A stretch of DNA of 64,000 nucleotides from Holdemania sp. Marseille-P2844. GTDB lineage: Bacteria; Bacillota_I; Bacilli_A; Erysipelotrichales; Erysipelotrichaceae. Each line of letters opens with the position of its first letter. Within the stretch, counting starts at the first letter, position 1. Made by a program: the position numbers and the translations under genes. Below are positions 29,372-51,474 of this stretch, one piece after another. A model generated the notes under the pieces. The model ran no database searches and was not told where the DNA came from. It saw only the letters and a program-made list of their open reading frames with translations. Location: NCBI RefSeq assembly GCF_900120005.1, contig NZ_LT635454.1:402759-466758 (forward strand), given 5' to 3'.

Positions 29372-29468
29372 GGTCAGCGGGATGCGGAACCTGCACCGCA
29401 AGAAACCTTTTCGTCCTTCTGACAACTCCCCGTTCAGAAAGCACTTAACGCGCAGGAACCTACTCTGT
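29372..29468 (-). ncRNA. Tetrahydrofolate (THF) riboswitch
   Basis: Read on the minus strand, the leader contains the conserved THF-I aptamer pieces in order: AGAGTAGG, GCGTTAAGTG, GGGGAGTTGTC, GGACGAAAAGG, GCGGTGCAGG and CCGCATCCCGCT. The pairing CCTGC/GCAGG fits the long-range stem. Located between a good promoter and folT. Known examples turn off folate uptake genes when reduced folate is plentiful. Confidence 0.92.
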
Positions 29469-29476
29469 TTGTGAAG

Positions 29477-42315: not shown

Positions 42316-42354
42316 TTTGGACAAAGAAAGCCGGACGTTCCGCATGAAATGCGG

Positions 42355-42360
42355 TATAAT
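42355..42360 (+). promoter_or_regulatory. -10 of EIIC-EAL gene
   Basis: TATAAT 22 nt before the ATG at 42383; no clear -35. Confidence 0.5.
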
Positions 42361-42382
42361 AGAAGAAATCAGGGAGAAAAAC

Positions 42383-44443
42383 ATGCGGAAAGAGAAGTTC
42401 AGCGCCGGCTTGGCGAAAATGGAATCCTGCCGACTGATCCGCGCGGTCAGGGCGGGATTGACGATCGCGATTCCGATTTTAATGATCGGGTCCTTTTCGT
42501 TATTGATTCGAACGTTTGCGGGTTATTTTCCTGCGCTGGCTTTTATCGAAGAACTGGCGGAACTGCTTTATCAATGTACCTTCGGCATTCTGTCGGTGCT
42601 GCTGACAGGGTGTCTGGCCTGGGGCGCGCTGCAGACCGAGGAGAAACCGCTGGCCGGGGATTGGATCGTTCCGCCGGCGGCTGTCATGGTGTTCATCATT
42701 CTCAACGGCGGCCTCAAGCTGGAATCGGCGGGAGCGGTCGGAACGTTTACCGCGGTGTGCGCGGCATTCTTTACAAGCTTTACGTATTGCGGGCTGCGGC
42801 GGAAGCTGCCTGACGAGCATTTCTTTACCCCCGGCGCGGATTACAATTTCAATCAGGCGCTGACGGCGATTCTGCCGATGCTGGCGGTGCTGCTGGGGGC
42901 GGCGGTGTTCAACGAGGGAATCCGGCTGGTGTTCCATATTGAAAGTTTCCAGGAAGTGTTCGTGCTGTTGTCCAATACGTTGTTTCGGCACATGGGACGG
43001 GGACTGGTCAGTTCGGCGCTGTTTGTGTTTTTGTCTTCCGTGCTGTGGCTTTTGGGAATCCATGGCGCCAACGTTCTGGAGAATGTTTCACGTTCCCTGT
43101 TTCAGGAGGGAATGCAGATCAACGTTGCCGCGGCGGCGGCCGGAATGGCGCCGACGGAGATCTTTACCAAGACATTTCTGGATAATTTTGTATTCATCGG
43201 CGGCTGTGGGACATTGATCTGTCTGCTGATCGCGCTGATGTTGTTCAGCCGTCAGCGCGTCAGCCGGACGCTGGCAAAAACGGCGGTCATTCCGATGTTG
43301 TTCAATATCAATGAGCTGATGATTTTCGGCCTGCCGGTTGTGTTTAATCCGGTGTTTGTAATTCCGTTTTTACTGACGCCCTTAGTCTGTCTGTTCACCT
43401 CGTCGCTGGCGATGGGGATGGGATGGGTTCCGGTGTGCGTGCAGGGCGTGGAATGGACGACGCCAGCGTTGATCAGCGGCTATCTGGCAACCCGATCGTG
43501 GACAGGAGCGCTGCTTCAGATTGTGAACATTGCGCTGGGCGTAGGAATTTACGCGCCGTTTGTGCTGCTTTACGATAAGATGCTGATCCGCCAGTCGCAG
43601 CGGCAGATGAGCGAGCTGATCGAAACGCTGGACGCCCAAATGGAGCAGGGCAAACCGGCGAATCTGATCGGGATGCATGGCGCCGTTGGCAATTTCGCAA
43701 AGCTGCTGGCGGCGGAGATTAACAACGATTTGCAGCAGAACCATATTGAAATGGGCTATCAGCCGCAGTTTGACGCGGAAAACCACTGCTTCGGCGTGGA
43801 AGCGCTGCTGCGGTACACTCATCCCCGCTATGGCAAGGTTCCCCCGCCGCTGATCATTGATCTGGCAAAGGAAACCGATCAGCTGCAGGCGCTGGAGATG
43901 GCGGTGTTCACGCAGGTGCTGCAGGCGGATTTCAGCGGGATCGACGCGGTGATTTCGATGAACGTCACCGTCGATACCTTGAAATCGGAGGTGTTCGCGG
44001 ATTTTCTCCGGCAACATCCGGTGCCGAAAGGCCGGTATTGCATTGAGGTGACGGAGCAGAACACGCTGCTTCTGGACGAGGCGATGCGCCAGCGGCTGAA
44101 GGAGTTTAAAGATCTGGGCTATTCGCTGGCAGTCGATGATTTCTCAATGGGCAGTACGTCGCTGAAGTATTTGCAGAGCAGTCAGTTTGAGCTTGTCAAG
44201 CTGGATGGCAGTCTGGTGAAAAATGCCCGGGTGAACGCGAGCGGACGGCAGATCATCCAGTCAATTCTGTATCTGGCCCAATCGATGAACTTCACGGTCA
44301 TCGCGGAATATGTCGAAACTGCAGAACTGCGCGACTTGCTGAAAGAATTGGGCTGTACGCATTATCAGGGGTATTTATACAGTCCGGCGGTGCCGCTGAA
44401 ACAGCTGCGGACGGTAATCCGGGAGATCGAAGCGCAGCGGTAA
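42383..44443 (+). CDS. PTS EIIC (lactose/cellobiose family) fused to EAL phosphodiesterase domain
   Basis: 686 aa from the ATG at 42383 (GGGAG upstream). Residues about 1-410 form a multi-helix EIIC domain of the cellobiose family, with features such as GIHGANVLEN and PMLFNINELMIFGLPVVFNP. Residues about 430-686 are an EAL domain that keeps the catalytic set: Glu473 of GVEALLRY, Asn in MNVTVD, Glu in IEVTEQ, Asp585-Asp586 in AVDDFS, Lys in VKLDG, Glu642 in IAEYVET and Gln in HYQGYLYSP. It therefore probably hydrolyses cyclic-di-GMP. No EIIA or EIIB is fused or adjacent, so the EIIC part may serve as a sugar sensor rather than a transporter; that is inference. Confidence 0.88.
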   Translation: MRKEKFSAGLAKMESCRLIRAVRAGLTIAIPILMIGSFSLLIRTFAGYFPALAFIEELAELLYQCTFGILSVLLTGCLAWGALQTEEKPLAGDWIVPPAAVMVFIILNGGLKLESAGAVGTFTAVCAAFFTSFTYCGLRRKLPDEHFFTPGADYNFNQALTAILPMLAVLLGAAVFNEGIRLVFHIESFQEVFVLLSNTLFRHMGRGLVSSALFVFLSSVLWLLGIHGANVLENVSRSLFQEGMQINVAAAAAGMAPTEIFTKTFLDNFVFIGGCGTLICLLIALMLFSRQRVSRTLAKTAVIPMLFNINELMIFGLPVVFNPVFVIPFLLTPLVCLFTSSLAMGMGWVPVCVQGVEWTTPALISGYLATRSWTGALLQIVNIALGVGIYAPFVLLYDKMLIRQSQRQMSELIETLDAQMEQGKPANLIGMHGAVGNFAKLLAAEINNDLQQNHIEMGYQPQFDAENHCFGVEALLRYTHPRYGKVPPPLIIDLAKETDQLQALEMAVFTQVLQADFSGIDAVISMNVTVDTLKSEVFADFLRQHPVPKGRYCIEVTEQNTLLLDEAMRQRLKEFKDLGYSLAVDDFSMGSTSLKYLQSSQFELVKLDGSLVKNARVNASGRQIIQSILYLAQSMNFTVIAEYVETAELRDLLKELGCTHYQGYLYSPAVPLKQLRTVIREIEAQR

Positions 44444-44580: not shown

Positions 44581-44645
44581 CTTGTTATATCATGTATTCA
44601 TAATTGACATTTTTATATGACATGTTAGTATAAAGGTATAACAAG
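44581..44645 (+). promoter_or_regulatory. Control region of mannose-type PTS operon
   Basis: TTGACA at 44604-44609 with TAGTAT (16-nt spacer) or TATAAA (19-nt spacer) as -10. The region is bounded by a perfect 9-bp inverted repeat, CTTGTTATA (44581-44589) and TATAACAAG (44637-44645), spaced widely enough for paired operator half-sites. The GntR regulator at the end of the operon is the obvious candidate to bind here. Confidence 0.5.
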
Positions 44646-44682
44646 ATGCGCAGCTTGCTTGACGAAAGAAGAGGTGATCCGT

Positions 44683-45420
44683 TTGAAAATGCTCGACGCT
44701 CATTCTCATCTGGGGACAACCAGCTCTGGCGATCCTCATGACGTTCATCAGCTCGTAAAGGACATGCTCAGCCATGGCATCACGCAAACCGGTATCAGCA
44801 GTCTGTCCGGTACCGATAATCGCCGCCAGAACGACCTTGTCTATGAAGCCATGCAGTTGTATCCAGAACAGATTCGGGGTTATGCGTTCATCAATCCCAA
44901 GGCGCCCGATGTCCATCAGGAAATTGATCTGGATCTGGGGCAGCGGCACATGGTCGGCGTGAAATTTCATCCCTGGAAACATGGGTATTATTCTGATAAT
45001 ACACCGCAGCTGCAGGAGGTCCTCGCGCATATTTTTGAATATCCGGTTCAGGTCCAGGTTCATGTCGGAACCAGTCCGCTGTGCACCCCGTTTGCCTGGA
45101 TCCGCTACGCGAAGATGTTTCCTGATCATCCGTTTGTTTTCACACACATGGGAAGCCGGGAGTTTGGTTATACCGTCGTTGAGGCGGTGCGCGATGTTCC
45201 CAATATTTACCTTGAAACATCCGTGCAATACCAGCGCGACGTGCTGCTTAAAGCTGCCCGCGAAATTGGATCCCGGCGGATCTTGTTCGGCGTTGACTGG
45301 CCATATAAGCCGATCGAAACCGAAGTCCGCAAAATCCAGCTGCTGGGTTTTTCGCAAACTGAACTGGAAGACGTTTATTACCGCAACATTGAAGAATTAT
45401 GGCAGAAAGCGGAGGGATAA
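44683..45420 (+). CDS. Amidohydrolase-2 family metal hydrolase, first of pair
   Basis: 245 aa from a TTG start with AGAGG 8 nt upstream (an ATG two codons on is the alternative). TIM-barrel amidohydrolase-2 fold (COG2159): DAHSHLG, VKFHPW, VQVHVGT, FTHMGS and FGVDWP supply a complete metal site. Relatives include decarboxylases and lactonases. First gene of a seven-gene operon with a mannose-family PTS, so the substrate is likely a PTS-imported sugar derivative or glycoside. Confidence 0.85.
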   Translation: MKMLDAHSHLGTTSSGDPHDVHQLVKDMLSHGITQTGISSLSGTDNRRQNDLVYEAMQLYPEQIRGYAFINPKAPDVHQEIDLDLGQRHMVGVKFHPWKHGYYSDNTPQLQEVLAHIFEYPVQVQVHVGTSPLCTPFAWIRYAKMFPDHPFVFTHMGSREFGYTVVEAVRDVPNIYLETSVQYQRDVLLKAAREIGSRRILFGVDWPYKPIETEVRKIQLLGFSQTELEDVYYRNIEELWQKAEG

Positions 45421-45422
45421 AG

Positions 45423-45914
45423 ATGGAGATTACCGTGATTCGGATTGACGATCGGTTAATTCATGGGCAAATCATTACAAAATGGATTGCGGAAGCGAGG
45501 GCGGAACAAATTCTGGTTGTAGACGAGAAGAGCGCCGCGGATCCGATGCTCCGGATGATTCTGGCGCTGGCGGTCCCGTCGGGGATTCATTTGGAAGTCC
45601 TGTCGCAGGAGGCTGCCCTGAAGCTGATCAATGTGGACACCTCCGCCCGGCGGACGCTGATGATTGTCCGCACGCCGCAGGCGATGCTGGACATGGTCCG
45701 GGCAGGATTGGATGTGAAATCCCGGGAGATCATCTTGGGAAATATGAGCTTTGACGAGAAAAAAGCCGGAATCCGGCATGTTCTTGACTATCTGTATGTC
45801 AACGATCAGGATGTCGAAACGCTGAAAGCGCTGGCGGCGTCCTGCGCTAAAATGACCATTAAAGCCGTTCCAGAGGAACGGGGAAAAGAGCTTAAGATTC
45901 TGCAACAAAAATAA
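45423..45914 (+). CDS. PTS EIIB, mannose/fructose/sorbose family
   Basis: 163 aa. The signature DDRLIHGQI near the N-terminus contains the phospho-accepting His14; mannose-family EIIB uses His instead of Cys. Starts 3 nt after the amidohydrolase stop with GGAGGG upstream. It takes phosphate from the EIIA at the end of the operon and gives it to the sugar carried by the EIIC-EIID protein. Confidence 0.94.
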   Translation: MEITVIRIDDRLIHGQIITKWIAEARAEQILVVDEKSAADPMLRMILALAVPSGIHLEVLSQEAALKLINVDTSARRTLMIVRTPQAMLDMVRAGLDVKSREIILGNMSFDEKKAGIRHVLDYLYVNDQDVETLKALAASCAKMTIKAVPEERGKELKILQQK

Positions 45915-45935
45915 ACAAACCGGAAAGGAGAACTT

Positions 45936-47519
45936 ATGTTACTGAAAGCATTTTTAGTCTCGCTCGTCGTCTGGCTGGGATTTTTGGATAAAGCCTTTCT
46001 GTCGACTTTCATTTACCGGCCAATTTGTCTGGGGCCGATCGTCGGTCTGATTTTCAATAATCTGCCGATGGGATTGGAGGTCGGCGTCACGATTGAACTG
46101 ATGTTTCTGGCTGTCGTCTATGTCGGGACCGCAGTTCCGCCGGATGAGGTGATCAGTGCGGGAATCGCTACGGCTCTGGCCTGTCTGTCCGGCAGCGCCG
46201 CGCTGGGAATTACGACGGCGATCCCGATTTCATTGTTAGGTCTGATCGGCCGTCAATTCCGGAACGCAACACTGCAGGAATTCACGACCCGTCAGGTAGA
46301 AAAAGCCGCAAAGAAAGCGGATGTCCGGGGGATTAAGATCTGGACGTCGCTGATGCCGGCAATCGTCAATTATATCTTATTCGGACTGCCGACGTTCATC
46401 GCCGTTTACTTCGGAGCGGAAGTCGTTCAGAATTTCCTGAACGTCATCCCGGCCTGGCTGACCAGCGGCGTGCGCGCCGGCGGCGGCATGTTGGGCGCCG
46501 TGGGCGTTGCATTGTTGTTGGGGACGATTAAAAACAAGAGTTCCTGGCCTTATTTTGTCCTGGGCTTTATCATCGCGGCGTATCTGGGAATCAATATGAT
46601 CGGAATGGCGGCGATTGCGCTAGTCTGCGTCGCCCTGAATTACTATGTGGAAAAAGAAGACGCGCCGCAGACCGTTTTGTCCTCCTCAGCGCAGGAAGGA
46701 GCGCCGAATCATCTGAGCAAAAAGACGCTGTGGAAAACCTACATGTATTCTCTGGCGATTGAAAGCGGCTGTTCCAATACAAAACAGGAAGCGCCGGGGA
46801 TTGTCCAGGGCCTGATTCCGGTTATTGAAGAGGTCTATACCGATCCGAAGGACAAGGCGGAAGCCTATCAGCGGCATACGCAGCTGTTTCTGACGGAGGG
46901 CCGGATGGCGTCTTTCTGCATCGGGATTTCCGCCGCGATGGAAGAGCGGAATGCCCGCAGCCATGATATCGATCCGGAATCGATCAATCAGATTAAAGTG
47001 GCGCTGATGGGGCCGTTAGCCGGCATTGGCGATTCCCTCATCCATGGCACATTGCGGCCGATCATGGCCGGATTGGGCTGTTCAATGATCATGGCCAGTC
47101 ATTACACCAGCGCCGCGGGAGCGGTTGTGTTTGTCCTGGTGATGACGCTTGTTCAGCTGTTAGTTCGCTATTTCGGTATTTTCAAAGGCTATCTGGGCGG
47201 CTTGAATTTAGTCGCGCGGCTGCAGATGGGCGGCATCCTGGATAAAATTACAAAATATGCCGGAATCGCCGCGTCGTTAATTTGCGGCGGTTTTATCTCC
47301 TCGCTGGTTTCGATCAATCTGGCGATTCAGTTTGCGGCGGGCGACGACGTGATCCAGCTTCAGGAAGTGCTCGACGGGTTAATGCCGAACTTGCTTCCGC
47401 TGCTTCTGACGCTGCTGATGGTCTGGTTAATGGGACGGAAGAAAGTGAACATGATCGTTTTGATGATCGCGGTCTTCCTGCTGGGAATTGCCGGGGTGGC
47501 TCTTGGCATTCTGGCTTAA
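45936..47519 (+). CDS. PTS EIIC-EIID fusion, mannose family
   Basis: 527 aa. Residues about 1-245 are EIIC of the mannose family (GPIVGLIFNNLPMGLEVGVTIELMFLAVVYVGTAVPPDE). After a short linker (DAPQTVLSSSAQEG), residues about 262-527 are EIID (LAIESGCSNTKQEAPG, then HTQLFLTEGRMASFCIGI, and LMGPLAGIGDSLIHGTLRPI). These are usually two separate proteins that form one channel; here one reading frame covers both with no stop or shift. It forms the membrane channel. Confidence 0.92.
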   Translation: MLLKAFLVSLVVWLGFLDKAFLSTFIYRPICLGPIVGLIFNNLPMGLEVGVTIELMFLAVVYVGTAVPPDEVISAGIATALACLSGSAALGITTAIPISLLGLIGRQFRNATLQEFTTRQVEKAAKKADVRGIKIWTSLMPAIVNYILFGLPTFIAVYFGAEVVQNFLNVIPAWLTSGVRAGGGMLGAVGVALLLGTIKNKSSWPYFVLGFIIAAYLGINMIGMAAIALVCVALNYYVEKEDAPQTVLSSSAQEGAPNHLSKKTLWKTYMYSLAIESGCSNTKQEAPGIVQGLIPVIEEVYTDPKDKAEAYQRHTQLFLTEGRMASFCIGISAAMEERNARSHDIDPESINQIKVALMGPLAGIGDSLIHGTLRPIMAGLGCSMIMASHYTSAAGAVVFVLVMTLVQLLVRYFGIFKGYLGGLNLVARLQMGGILDKITKYAGIAASLICGGFISSLVSINLAIQFAAGDDVIQLQEVLDGLMPNLLPLLLTLLMVWLMGRKKVNMIVLMIAVFLLGIAGVALGILA

Positions 47520-47531
47520 GGAGGGGCGATT

Positions 47532-48293
47532 ATGATTTTTGATTTTCATGCCCATTTGCGCAGAAATGCGCAGTCCCATCAATACGAGATTGAAGAACAA
47601 CTGGAGGATATGCGGGCGAATCATATCGCTTACCGTGTTCTTTCCACTTTCGAAGGGGCGTCCATGGCGTCGGCCAACGATGCGGTGATCGCCCTGCATC
47701 GGCAATATCCGCAGATCATTCCCTGTGCCGTCATCAATCCGAAACAGGACGAAGCCGTTGCGGAAACCCGCCGGGTTTTGAGCGATCATCAGGTGAGGCT
47801 GATCGAAATGGATTCTCTGGAGTGCGGGTTCCTGCCGGAAAAGCTGGAATCCACGATCAATGCGATCCTGGTCGTTTGCGCGCAGCATCAGGCGGTGGTC
47901 AAAATTTTTACCGGTTCCACACACCGCGGAGCGCCCGATCAGTGGCTGAAGTATTTCCGGCGCTTTCCGCAGCTGACATTTGTTCTGCTGCACATGGGGG
48001 CAGGCGATTTCCAATACGGAACGGTTGATCTGTGCCAAGAAGTTCCCAATCTGATGCTGGAGACTTCGGTCGCCTGCGAAGCCCCGGCCCTGCAGAAAGC
48101 CTTGCGCGTGCTGGCGCCTGAGCGATTTCTGTTCGGCAGCGACTTCCCGGAGTATTTTACAGAACTGGAGGTCATGAAATTGAATTATTATGGATTAACG
48201 AAGACGCAGCTGCAAAACATCTATGCGGAAAATGCCCGCCGGCTGCTTCCGGATTTGTTTGAGAATGCGAAAGCGGTGAATGTATGCGGCTGA
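47532..48293 (+). CDS. Amidohydrolase-2 family protein, second of pair
   Basis: 253 aa. Same fold and order as the first amidohydrolase of the operon: DFHAHLR at the start, VLLHMGAGDFQYG, METSVA-like segment and FGSDFPEYF at the end. The third metal-site position differs: the first protein has VQVHVGT, this one has VKIFTGST, so that His is missing. It may bind one metal only or have changed its chemistry. Ribosome binding site AGGAGGGG. The end overlaps the next gene by 10 nt. Confidence 0.82.
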   Translation: MIFDFHAHLRRNAQSHQYEIEEQLEDMRANHIAYRVLSTFEGASMASANDAVIALHRQYPQIIPCAVINPKQDEAVAETRRVLSDHQVRLIEMDSLECGFLPEKLESTINAILVVCAQHQAVVKIFTGSTHRGAPDQWLKYFRRFPQLTFVLLHMGAGDFQYGTVDLCQEVPNLMLETSVACEAPALQKALRVLAPERFLFGSDFPEYFTELEVMKLNYYGLTKTQLQNIYAENARRLLPDLFENAKAVNVCG

Positions 48294-49255
48294 TGGAAAA
48301 GGAAGCGCTGCGGAACGCGCTGCCGGAAGCAGCCCGGCCGTTGTTTGACGATATCGTAGTCCCGCGGGTGCTGGGCGCTTCGGCGCATATCGACCGGATC
48401 AGTCAGATCGTCGGGGAGATCGGCCGGCAGGATTCCTCGCCGGCCGGCCTGATCCTGATCAACCAGCTGCTTGATTATTGCTGCGCGACCCGGGGCCAGT
48501 CCAGCTATGCGATCATCAACGCCGTCAGCGAGCTGAGCGCCCGGATCCAGACTCAGCTTCAGGCGGACTTTGAGGTCGGCCGCGCAGTGCAGGCGGCTGT
48601 GGAACAATTTCAGTCCGCCGGCCGCGCGCATCGTCAGGCAATTATTGCCACGGCTTCCGCATTATTGAAAAACTGCCGGAAAATTCTGCTTTATGATTAT
48701 TCCAGCACGGTGGATGCGGTGGTTCAGCAGCTGGCTTCCGATACGGAGATTGTCATCGCGGAGAGCCGGACGATCAGCGGCGGTCTTCCGTTTGTCAAAA
48801 CCTGTGTTCAGACGCATCAGTCTGTTTCATTCATTCCGGATGCGGCGCTTTGCCAGGGGCTGAAGGGGTGCGACGCCGTGTTGATCGGCGCGGAAACCTT
48901 TTATCCAGACGGAACGGCCTTGAATACGGCGGGTTCGGAGATGGCTGCGCTGCTGGCGCATTGGCAGCATGTTCCATATTATGTGCTGACAACGGCTCAA
49001 AAGGCGGATATGAGGGCGCTGCAGGGCGGCGGCAAGGTGATCGAACCGAAAGATTTGCGCTTCAAAATGGCCGCAGGAATGGCGGAGGCGGATGCTGAAC
49101 GTCTTGATTTCCATGTTCAGGGGTGCGTTCCGATTGCGCCGGAGTTCATCACCGCCTATATCACGGAACTGGGCGTGCTGCCGCCGGCGGCCTTGTTCAG
49201 CGCTTTATGGGCCTGGAAGCCGGAATATTTCAGAAGGAGGGAAGAAACGGAATGA
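48284..49255 (+). CDS. eIF2B/MtnA-like sugar-phosphate isomerase homologue
   Basis: 323 aa. An N-terminal helical part (about 1-115) is followed by the Rossmann-like eIF-2B alpha/beta/delta domain: ILLYDYSST, IVIAESRTISGG and CDAVLIGAETFYPDGTALNTAGSEMAALLA. Bacterial relatives are methylthioribose-1-phosphate isomerase and ribose-1,5-bisphosphate isomerase. Where those have GAD with the catalytic Asp, this one has GAE, and NK is NT. Thus it may act on a different phosphosugar or have a regulatory role. Weak ribosome binding site, likely coupled to the gene before; overlaps the next by 4 nt. Confidence 0.78.
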   Translation: MRLMEKEALRNALPEAARPLFDDIVVPRVLGASAHIDRISQIVGEIGRQDSSPAGLILINQLLDYCCATRGQSSYAIINAVSELSARIQTQLQADFEVGRAVQAAVEQFQSAGRAHRQAIIATASALLKNCRKILLYDYSSTVDAVVQQLASDTEIVIAESRTISGGLPFVKTCVQTHQSVSFIPDAALCQGLKGCDAVLIGAETFYPDGTALNTAGSEMAALLAHWQHVPYYVLTTAQKADMRALQGGGKVIEPKDLRFKMAAGMAEADAERLDFHVQGCVPIAPEFITAYITELGVLPPAALFSALWAWKPEYFRRREETE

Positions 49256-50052
49256 TGTCTGAACGATCGCGCATCCTGGCGATGCTGCAGCCGGAGGCCA
49301 TGCCGGGAAGTTATTTGAATCAGGGCCGGCGTTTTCCGGAGATTGCTGCCAATTTGATGGCGGAAGCCCGGCAGTTGGCGGAGATTGGCTATGATGGTTT
49401 TATTTTGCAGAATATGCATGACGGTCCGCTGCGTCAACAGGCTCAGCCCCAGACTCTGACCTTTATGACGGCGCTGGCGGTAACCCTGCGGAAGACATTT
49501 CCCGATAAGCTTCTGGGAATTCTGGTAAACTGGGACGGCGTCGCTTCATTAGCGGTCGCGGAAGCGGCGCAGGCAGATTTTATCCGGGTCGAATATTTAT
49601 ATACCGGTCTCAGCGTCAGCTTATGCGGTCTGGTTGAAGGGCAATGTGCCGAGATTCTGGAATTGAAAAAAAAGCTGGGCAGCACGATGCCTGTGTATGC
49701 GGATGCGCAGGAAGTCAGCGGGCATTTTCTGGGAGCGCCGGATAAGATTGAAGAAGCGGTGCGGATCGTGCAGCGGGCCTATGCCGACGGCCTGTTTCTG
49801 AGCGGAAAGGATCAGCAGGAAAGTCTGGCGTTGCTTGAAAAGCTTCGTCCGAAGCTTCCGCAGACTCCGGTTATTCTCGGCGGCCGGGCAACCGGCGATA
49901 ATATTTATGAATTGATGAAAGTTTATGACGGCGTGTCGGTCGCAACCTGGATAAAAGACGGCGATATGCGCAATCCTGTCAATCTGGACAAAGCGCGGTT
50001 CTTTTATAACGAAGCCCGCCGCGGCTGGCTGGCAAGGAAAAACCATGGGTAA
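49252..50052 (+). CDS. BtpA/SgcQ-family TIM-barrel protein
   Basis: 266 aa from the ATG at 49252 (a second ATG follows directly; AAGGAGGG upstream). BtpA family pattern: ARQLAEIGYDGFILQNMHD, ILVNWDGVASLAVAEAAQADFIRVE, LVEGQCAEI, VYADAQEVSGHFL and VILGGRATGDNI. BtpA was named from photosystem I work in cyanobacteria, but in enteric bacteria the relative SgcQ lies in a PTS cluster (sgc), as here, so a catabolic enzyme on a sugar phosphate is likely. Reaction unknown. Overlaps the EIIA start by 8 nt. Confidence 0.85.
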   Translation: MMSERSRILAMLQPEAMPGSYLNQGRRFPEIAANLMAEARQLAEIGYDGFILQNMHDGPLRQQAQPQTLTFMTALAVTLRKTFPDKLLGILVNWDGVASLAVAEAAQADFIRVEYLYTGLSVSLCGLVEGQCAEILELKKKLGSTMPVYADAQEVSGHFLGAPDKIEEAVRIVQRAYADGLFLSGKDQQESLALLEKLRPKLPQTPVILGGRATGDNIYELMKVYDGVSVATWIKDGDMRNPVNLDKARFFYNEARRGWLARKNHG

Positions 50053-50464
50053 TGTTCTCTTGTGTACCCACAGCACCCTCGCTGAAGGGTTTGAGCGTGC
50101 GGTGATGATGATCGTCCGCGCCGCGCCGTCGCTGGAAATTCTCTGCTTTGAAGATGGCTGCAGTATTGAAACGCTGATGGAACAGATGCGGAAAAAAACA
50201 GAGCGGTTTCGTCAGGTGAACGAAACTTACTGCATCGTCACTGATCTGTTCGGCGCCTCTCCCTTTAACGCCGCGATGCAGGTCTGCGCGAAAGAGACAG
50301 GTTTCGTTGTAACCGGCGTGAATCTGGCTTTGCTTCTGGAGCTGTTGACGCTGCCCGCATCCAAGATGACGCAGGAACGATTGAAAACGCTGATCGAGCA
50401 GGCGCAGGATCAAATTCGTTGTTATGATCCGGCAGCTCTGATGAAATCATCCGATTCAGTATAA
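50045..50464 (+). CDS. PTS EIIA, mannose family
   Basis: 139 aa. Active-site His9 in LLCTHSTLAEGF and the DLFGASPFN loop mark the mannose-type EIIA fold. It receives phosphate from HPr and passes it to the EIIB encoded at the start of the operon. Last gene of the operon; a terminator follows. Confidence 0.92.
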   Translation: MGNVLLCTHSTLAEGFERAVMMIVRAAPSLEILCFEDGCSIETLMEQMRKKTERFRQVNETYCIVTDLFGASPFNAAMQVCAKETGFVVTGVNLALLLELLTLPASKMTQERLKTLIEQAQDQIRCYDPAALMKSSDSV

Positions 50465-50473
50465 CCGGAAATC

Positions 50474-50519
50474 AACCCCATCGACGGCTTGACGTGTTTA
50501 AGCCGCTGATGGGGTTTTT
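50474..50519 (+). terminator. Terminator of mannose-type PTS operon
   Basis: Long stem AACCCCATC with GATGGGGTT plus inner CGGCTT/AAGCCG, then TTTTG. Confidence 0.85.
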
Positions 50520-50542
50520 GTTTTGACCTCAGGTCTTTTATA

Positions 50543-50578
50543 AAACGAAAAAGCTCCAACAGGAATACTGGAGCTTGA
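50543..50578 (-). terminator. Terminator of gntR gene
   Basis: Minus strand stem AAGCTCCA with TGGAGCTT followed by TTTCGTTTT. Confidence 0.75.
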
Positions 50579-50651
50579 AGATTCGTCGCAAGCCGGTTTC
50601 TCAAGGGCGATCACGCCGGTTTCTCCGCGCGCTGCTTTCTCAACGATCTCG

Positions 50652-51401
50652 CTAACGTGTGTTATTTAAATGGACGACATATTTGTAATCGAGCGCCCGA
50701 TAGCTGTTTTGCGAAAACTCAATCGGTTTGTTGTCCGCAGTGTAGGTAATCCGCTCCCGATACATGATCGGTTCATCTTCGCTGATGAATAGTTCCTGTT
50801 TCAGCTGGCGCGAGGCGATGCGGGCTTCTATGATTTCATCCGCGCAGCCGATCTGAATTCCCAACGTTTCATATAACTCATAAAGCGAGGTATTTTCATC
50901 CAGATCTTCCGGTTTGATCAGGCAGCCGATCTGCGGGTGAATATACGTGTCATGAACGCCGATAATCCGGCCGTTCTTTAAACGCAGCCGTTTTAAAAAG
51001 TAAACCTCCCCGCCTAACGGAAGCTGAAGATATTCGCTGACCAGCGGATTGGCAGGCTCGGTTTTAAACTGCAGAATGATCGACGAGGGCCGGCCGCCGG
51101 ATTTCTTAAGCGAAGTTGAAAAACCAACGACCTCGCCAAGGTTGCTGTAGGTTCTTAACGGCATCACTTTTGCCAGTTTTCCCCGTTTGCGGCTGATATA
51201 GCCGGCGTCTTCCAGATCTTTCAGCGATCGGCGGATAGTGATCCGGCTGACATTGAATTCTTTCTGAAAATCGAGTTCCGAAGGCAGACTTGAATTCTCA
51301 GGATATTGCCCTGTTTCTATCCGACTCAGGATAATCTCATAAATTTTCATGTATAAAGGCGCTTTTTTTTCCGACGCATTCCCATTGATTTCCGAGGTCA
51401 T
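50652..51401 (-). CDS. GntR-family regulator with UTRA domain
   Basis: 249 aa from the ATG at 51401 (GGAAGGA upstream; an ATG 7 codons earlier is less well placed). N-terminal winged helix: APLYMKIYEIILSRIETGQY, LPSELDFQKEFNVSRITIRRSLKDLEDAGYI. The C-terminal UTRA ligand domain (about 95-240, ending ITYTADNKPIEFSQNSYR) binds sugar phosphates or similar. HutC/FarR subgroup. Convergent with the mannose-type PTS operon, which it most likely regulates. Confidence 0.9.
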   Translation of the reverse strand: MTSEINGNASEKKAPLYMKIYEIILSRIETGQYPENSSLPSELDFQKEFNVSRITIRRSLKDLEDAGYISRKRGKLAKVMPLRTYSNLGEVVGFSTSLKKSGGRPSSIILQFKTEPANPLVSEYLQLPLGGEVYFLKRLRLKNGRIIGVHDTYIHPQIGCLIKPEDLDENTSLYELYETLGIQIGCADEIIEARIASRQLKQELFISEDEPIMYRERITYTADNKPIEFSQNSYRALDYKYVVHLNNTR

Positions 51402-51445
51402 TCTATAAGATTCCTTCCGCATGGTAGATCAATTTTATTGGCCTC

Positions 51446-51474
51446 ATTATACCATGGATAAAGTGGGTTTTCAA
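51446..51474 (-). promoter_or_regulatory. Promoter of gntR gene
   Basis: Minus strand TTGAAA, 17-nt spacer, TATAAT. Confidence 0.7.

Follow-up and report, generated by a model that had tools for sequence, protein, structure and literature searches.

A mannose-type PTS operon with an invariant IF2B-BtpA gene pair and a possible role in the catabolism of nucleoside-like ribosides

The window analyzed here, a 64,000-nucleotide stretch of DNA, contains a catabolic PTS operon, a known operon type, with a new enzyme set whose invariant core is a pair of genes for an eIF2B/MtnA-like protein (IF2B, PF01008) and a BtpA protein (PF03437). We tentatively propose, at somewhat short of even odds, that this operon serves the catabolism of a nucleoside-like riboside, that is, a pentose carrying a nitrogenous group that resembles a ureide or an amide. 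We infer this substrate class because the genes that replace parts of the operon in other genomes point to it. Both the substrate and the reaction of IF2B-BtpA would be new.

RESULTS

Gene content and organization

ORF calling and Pfam searches placed eight genes at window positions 44659-51422, in the order AH1-EIIB-EIICD-AH2-IF2B-BtpA-EIIA followed by a convergent GntR/UTRA gene (Table 1), where AH denotes an amidohydrolase of PF04909. All eight exceed curated Pfam cut-offs, giving the series Amidohydro_2, PTSIIB_sorb, EII-Sor plus EIID-AGA (one fused ORF), Amidohydro_2, IF-2B, BtpA, EIIA-man, and GntR plus UTRA. This agrees with the initial annotation, which had described seven packed genes and a convergent regulator at this place. 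Its reading of one operon also held: neighboring genes overlap or lie within ~22 bp of each other, and the AH1-to-EIIA run appears to be a single unit bounded by a sigma-70-like promoter and a stem-loop with a T-run. The genes are real as annotated, but two of their limits were moved. AH1 likely starts at TTG 44683, rather than at 44659 or 44581, because the strong ribosome-binding sequence AGAGGTGAT precedes this codon and the MKMYD start of its relatives aligns with it; BtpA probably starts at ATG 49252. Just 5' of the operon (42317-44443, plus strand) lies a gene that joins a cellobiose/lactose-type PTS EIIC to an EAL domain (c-di-GMP phosphodiesterase), and a THF riboswitch is found at 29373-29469 on the minus strand.

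Table 1. Features of the operon and its flanking signals, in window coordinates
Feature	Position	Strand	Basis
Operator-like site TGTTATATCA	44583-44592	+	At most 2 mismatches to the shared consensus TGTTATAACA
Sigma-70-like promoter TTGACA-16-TAGTAT with TG	44604-44631	+	Consensus match only, 10/12
Second operator-like site AGGTATAACA	44634-44643	+	3' of the -10
AH1, Amidohydro_2, full metal site	44683-45420	+	Pfam, residue alignment, AF2 model
PTS EIIB, mannose family, DDRLIHGQ active-site motif	45399-45914	+	Pfam
PTS EIIC-EIID fusion, mannose family	45936-47519	+	Pfam
AH2, Amidohydro_2 paralogue	47532-48293	+	Pfam, residue alignment
IF2B, eIF2B/MtnA-fold protein	48284-49255	+	Pfam, alignments
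BtpA/SgcQ-like ribulose-phosphate-binding TIM barrel	49252-50052	+	Pfam, AF2 model, fold search
PTS EIIA, mannose family	50045-50464	+	Pfam
Rho-independent terminator-like hairpin, then TTTTTGTTTT	~50476-50514, after EIIA	+	Sequence inspection
GntR/UTRA (HutC-type) regulator	50652-51422	-	Pfam; promoter-like site 51474-51446

A palindrome, TGTTATAACA, is common to the regions 5' of AH1 or GntR. With at most one mismatch, it occurs in 25 of 54 upstream regions, compared with 1.3 expected from shuffled sequences (maximum, 5), and its density upstream is ~8 times that in the loci overall. Two weaker copies lie on either side of the promoter-like site in the window. The GntR/UTRA protein may repress the operon through such sites.

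Conservation and distribution

In Erysipelotrichaceae, the operon is complete or nearly so around all nine close relatives of the window IF2B. Gene order is the same in each apart from the position of GntR, and EIIA was undetected in the operons of two of the nine. Of 50 named loci in other Bacillota and in Coriobacteriia, about 35 likewise carry all or nearly all of its genes (the scan spanned Erysipelotrichaceae, Lachnospiraceae, Clostridium, Bacillus relatives, Isobaculum, Collinsella, Olsenella, Enorma, and others). IF2B is directly followed by BtpA in 49 of these 50 loci and forms with it the invariant core of the operon; the counts for AH2, AH1, and the PTS genes are 37, 33, and about 35. 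Because the gene order is repeated in every family relative and in most of the named loci, its recurrence is far beyond chance, and this neighborhood search bore out the earlier expectation that the genes travel together.

The distribution of the operon is nevertheless rare and patchy. In wider samples of ~300 to 400 genomes each, strong AH1 homologues were present in a handful of genomes or fewer, and AH1 searches in other groups added few operons. Three further genomes of the window's genus lack this IF2B, and plasmids contained no relative of it at an E value of 1e-5. In Paenibacillus and Peribacillus (L061, L068), the operon appears cut down to GntR-(AH2)-IF2B-BtpA, and further, disrupted copies of IF2B and BtpA lie 3' of it.

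The core pair: IF2B and BtpA

The window IF2B scores 91.4 bits against PF01008 (gathering cut-off, 22.4). Its best profile match is ribose-1,5-bisphosphate (R15P) isomerase (E value, 1.8e-19), with eIF2B-alpha close behind and also among its top PDB matches; sequence similarity to solved family members is weak (phmmer E values of 1e-9 or weaker). It had been annotated as MtnA-like, with the isomerization of sugar 1-phosphates as the known activity of such proteins; this assignment to an isomerase is not supported. All NCBIfam isomerase cut-offs are missed, and the MtnA/R15P isomerase signature (Cys of THCxxG/THCHSK, Asp of GADR/GADS) is lacking. In all nine aligned members, Asp138 replaces the catalytic Cys and Glu204 the catalytic Asp; therefore, IF2B is unlikely to be the isomerase implied by its annotation. 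R70 and K240 are invariant. The search patterns of the 50-locus scan contained D138 and E204, which makes their conservation there partly circular; the unbiased evidence comes from the nine aligned members, which were recovered by whole-protein search.

A sister group of IF2B proteins (L036-L039, L041, L042) has Ser in place of the catalytic Cys and keeps the Asp. PsuG directly follows IF2B in five of these loci (the test covered all but L041), and a beta-glucoside-type PTS accompanies IF2B in four (L036, L037, L038, and L041; typing of EIIA and antiterminator genes was confined to L036). Sister-group loci with PsuG and a PTS are candidate PTS operons for pseudouridine. PnrA-type nucleoside-binding proteins lie near this group in three genomes. 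At another locus (L093, 7960-11994), IF2B is fused to a GlmS-like SIS region and follows a protein with a C-terminal PfkB domain.

BtpA scores 128.1 bits against PF03437 (cut-off, 30), falls short of NCBIfam TIGR00259 (140.3 versus 153.4 bits), and belongs to a divergent branch that is 24 to 27% identical to canonical BtpA. Its AF2 model (pLDDT, 93) is a ribulose-phosphate-type TIM barrel. The fold search returned only the generic ribulose-phosphate-barrel group (RPE, ThiE, TrpA, HisA/TrpF-like proteins, and KDPG aldolase), and because these matches are generic, no reaction can be read from the fold. BtpA occurs without IF2B in rhizobia, haloarchaea, and genome G067. A second cluster in G067 (L094, 6833-11328) reads GntR-like-EIIB-EIIC-EIID-AH1'-BtpA', lacks AH2 and IF2B, and adjoins a URO-D-like gene and another mannose PTS. 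The window's own genome also carries a canonical BtpA gene (L040, 3102-9119), opposite a PfkB-PTS EIIBCA-esterase-class II aldolase run.

Amidohydrolases and permease

The two amidohydrolases had been described as a pair. AH1 has the ligand set of metal-dependent (ACMSD-like) Amidohydro_2 enzymes, and AH2 does not. All metal ligands of AH1 are kept (H15xH17, H135, H163, and D213 in the 253-amino-acid numbering from 44659), with the HxH motif, beta-5 His, beta-6 His, and beta-8 Asp retained by 22 to 23 of 23 AH1 sequences. The closest solved folds to its AF2 model (pLDDT, 92) are 3cjp (of unknown function), gamma-resorcylate decarboxylase, and PDC hydrolase. In AH2, the beta-5 His is Phe in 22 of 22 sequences (F126 in the window) and the beta-8 Asp is kept in the window sequence alone, so that AH2 is probably a partner or degenerate subunit. 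A different AH-AH pair (L123, 7908-13668) lies between two SIS proteins, with EIIC and two small lactose-type EIIA/EIIB-like genes.

The permease belongs to the mannose family by EIIA-man, sorbose-type EIIB, EII-Sor EIIC, and EIID, each over its Pfam cut-off. NCBIfam subfamily cut-offs are missed, and the assignment therefore stops at the level of the mannose family.

Gene replacements in variant operons

In nearly all typed operons that lack the PTS and AH genes, a PfkB kinase lies beside or near IF2B-BtpA. These PfkB operons carry an ECF transporter (with a CD3073-type S component) or a sugar-type/BPD_transp_2 ABC transporter. PfkB plus ECF replaces the PTS in L070 and L092 (typed) and, to judge from their matching gene layout, in L071 and L075, and a sugar/nucleoside-type ABC transporter does so in L057 and L087; on the IF2B tree, the swap between PTS and kinase requires at least two changes. 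The kinase of L070 falls just short of a ribokinase cut-off (295.5 versus 299.65). Because a kinase and a transporter together replace the PTS, the PTS would supply both transport and phosphate, and the substrate that reaches IF2B and BtpA is probably phosphorylated.

The core pair is itself replaced on the Klebsiella plasmid pC708_1, where an ADP-ribosylglycohydrolase (ARH) takes the place of IF2B-BtpA in the order AH1-EIIA-EIIB-EIIC-EIID-AH2-ARH-GntR. Identities to the window proteins are 46% for AH1, 46% for EIID, 39% for EIIC, and 32% for AH2. AH1 searches in other groups gave no second case of this replacement, and E. coli genomes contained no near match to the Klebsiella operon. The plasmid ARH is 56% identical to the ARH beside the aminoimidazole riboside kinase in Salmonella, an activity reported for the kinase of that operon (PMC3161100). 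In Anaerotruncus (L087), IF2B-BtpA, PfkB, and an ARH that is 46% identical to that of Salmonella occur in one run.

Other variants add genes of nucleoside or ureide type: a PNP/uridine-phosphorylase-family gene in the run after IF2B-BtpA (L092), a dihydropyrimidinase gene (466 bits versus a cut-off of 393) overlapped by EIIA (L122), a ureidoglycolate-lyase-like gene (L057, L070, and L089), and an M20 carbamoylase gene overlapped by BtpA on a rhizobial plasmid. The window operon contains no nucleoside phosphorylase, hydrolase, PsuG, or ARH; nucleoside phosphorylase, PsuG, and ARH were found only in variants or beside the sister IF2B group. The simplest common factor of the variants is a sugar-phosphorylated pentose on a nitrogenous base or its remnant. 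A GntR-ARH-SIS-PfkB island also occurs near parC/parE (L121, 7706-11465), and its GntR-ARH part is present in 404 of 5,426 E. coli genomes.

DISCUSSION

A model for riboside catabolism

The results presented above support a catabolic PTS pathway, as had been suggested, and led us to speculate about how it could proceed. EIIA, EIIB, and EIICD would import the compound and phosphorylate it, most likely at the ribose 5'-OH, as a one-step equivalent of the ECF or ABC transporter and PfkB riboside kinase of sister operons. AH1 would act as a metal-dependent hydrolase, probably in a pair with the degenerate AH2, and open or trim the base. IF2B would bind the phosphorylated sugar and, together with the phosphate-binding barrel BtpA, release pentose phosphate from the aglycone, as ARH may do elsewhere; the pentose phosphate would then pass into central metabolism. 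A bolder version, which we consider rather unlikely, is that a modified or damaged nucleoside enters as the 5'-phosphate via the mannose-type PTS and that IF2B-BtpA is a new two-protein enzyme, interchangeable with ARH, that splits pentose phosphate off the base or off what is left of it after ring opening.

Several observations weigh against a riboside substrate. The PTS version with ARH was found only once, nucleoside phosphorylase and dihydropyrimidinase occur in one locus each, and the SIS proteins that accompany IF2B (L092) or are fused to it (L093) would suit aminosugar or Amadori substrates equally well. Moreover, yegTUV, an ARH-PfkB operon, has been linked to glycogen and ADP-glucose (PMC10819704), so ARH and PfkB together do not necessarily mark a riboside pathway. 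In addition, we know of no PTS permease shown to carry a nucleoside.

Because of the SIS proteins in L092, L093, L123, E. coli M8, and Yersinia, the main rival to the riboside reading is a glycated amine or amino-sugar derivative (an Amadori compound or an N-glycosyl amino acid or amide). Here, the mannose-type PTS would phosphorylate C6, AH1/AH2 would remove the amide or acyl part, and IF2B-BtpA would isomerize the product and cleave the sugar-nitrogen bond like SIS-type deglycases. Fructoselysine-like compounds and amino sugars are known substrates of mannose-type PTSs, and SIS proteins that are GlmS/NagB-II/FrlB-like by score lie beside IF2B or are fused with it in L092 and L093; L123, where two SIS proteins and a PTS accompany an AH-AH pair, and the ARH-SIS-PfkB genes of E. 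coli and Yersinia point the same way. However, none of the scanned SIS proteins reaches the deglycase cut-off, the kinases are ribokinase-like, the ARH comes from the riboside-kinase operon clade, and PsuG, nucleoside phosphorylase, and PnrA-type transporters accompany IF2B relatives, all of which leaves a glycated substrate rather unlikely.

The other two alternatives concern what IF2B does. It could be a non-enzymatic sugar-phosphate sensor or scaffold, as in eIF2B-alpha, regulating BtpA or holding a BtpA-IF2B complex. eIF2B-alpha also lacks the catalytic Cys and is among the best PDB matches, the IF2B gene is strictly adjacent to BtpA, and invariant R70 and K240 suggest that a ligand is likely still bound. 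Yet D138, E204, and many other site residues are invariant, as in an active site (D138 and E204 were in the search patterns), and BtpA can occur without IF2B; we judge a sensor or scaffold unlikely. Least probable by our estimate, and quite doubtful, is the combination of lactonases (AH1/AH2), an aldose-1-phosphate to ketose-1-phosphate isomerase (IF2B), and an aldolase (BtpA), with a C1-phosphorylated aldose or the lactone or amide of a sugar acid as substrate. AH1 falls in a lactonase/decarboxylase branch (2ffi and 3s4t folds), IF2B is nearest by profile to R15P isomerase, and BtpA resembles KDPG aldolase-type and RPE-type barrels; against this stand the replaced isomerase residues of IF2B (C to D, D to E, and RGAG Arg to Leu) and the ribokinase-like replacement kinases, and we know of no PTS that phosphorylates an aldose at C1. 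The initial annotation's unusual sugar derivative is retained and, through the replacement genes, tentatively narrowed to a nucleoside-like riboside, whereas the lactone and C1-phosphorylated sugar that it offered as examples are not suggested by the variants.

Significance and comparison with known systems

In line with the earlier statement that no described pathway has this set, none of the papers that we searched describes it. Searches for BtpA did not usefully join it with amidohydrolase, eIF2B, PfkB, or TIM barrel; those for SgcQ returned irrelevant matches or lists only; those for R15P isomerase residues gave nothing useful; and titles and abstracts contained no system combining a PTS with PsuG, riboside, or ARH. 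Both BtpA/SgcQ proteins and those bacterial eIF2B relatives that are not isomerases occur widely and have no settled bacterial function outside photosystem work. The operon links the two across many genera and names a likely substrate class. If the riboside reading is true, it would extend the PTS range to nucleoside-like compounds and provide a modified-nucleoside salvage route in gut Bacillota.

Several known systems share features with the operon. IF2B shares the fold of the MtnA/R15P isomerase/eIF2B-alpha family and keeps an Arg and a Lys at aligned positions (R70 and K240), but differs in its Cys-to-Asp, Asp-to-Glu, NKIGT Lys-to-Thr, and RGAG Arg-to-Leu changes. The E. coli sgc cluster, whose function is unsolved, likewise joins a PTS with a BtpA-family protein (SgcQ); it differs by its galactitol-type PTS and its partners SgcX and SgcE and is not known to include IF2B or amidohydrolases. 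Mannose-type PTS operons for Amadori compounds or amino sugars share the PTS class, whereas the window operon lacks their SIS deglycase and has the AH pair, IF2B, and BtpA in addition. In the PsuK-PsuG pseudouridine pathway, a kinase is followed by a glycosidase acting on the nucleoside 5'-phosphate, and PsuG adjoins the sister IF2B group; in contrast, PsuG was seen neither in the window operon nor in its orthologues. The Salmonella STM4065-4068 type operon (MFS transporter, aminoimidazole riboside kinase, ADP-ribosylglycohydrolase, and GntR), whose native substrate is itself unsettled, has no PTS, amidohydrolases, IF2B, or BtpA, but would follow the same logic of uptake, phosphorylation, and release under GntR control. 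The Klebsiella hybrid operon has AH1, the PTS, and AH2 in common with the window and ARH in common with the Salmonella type.
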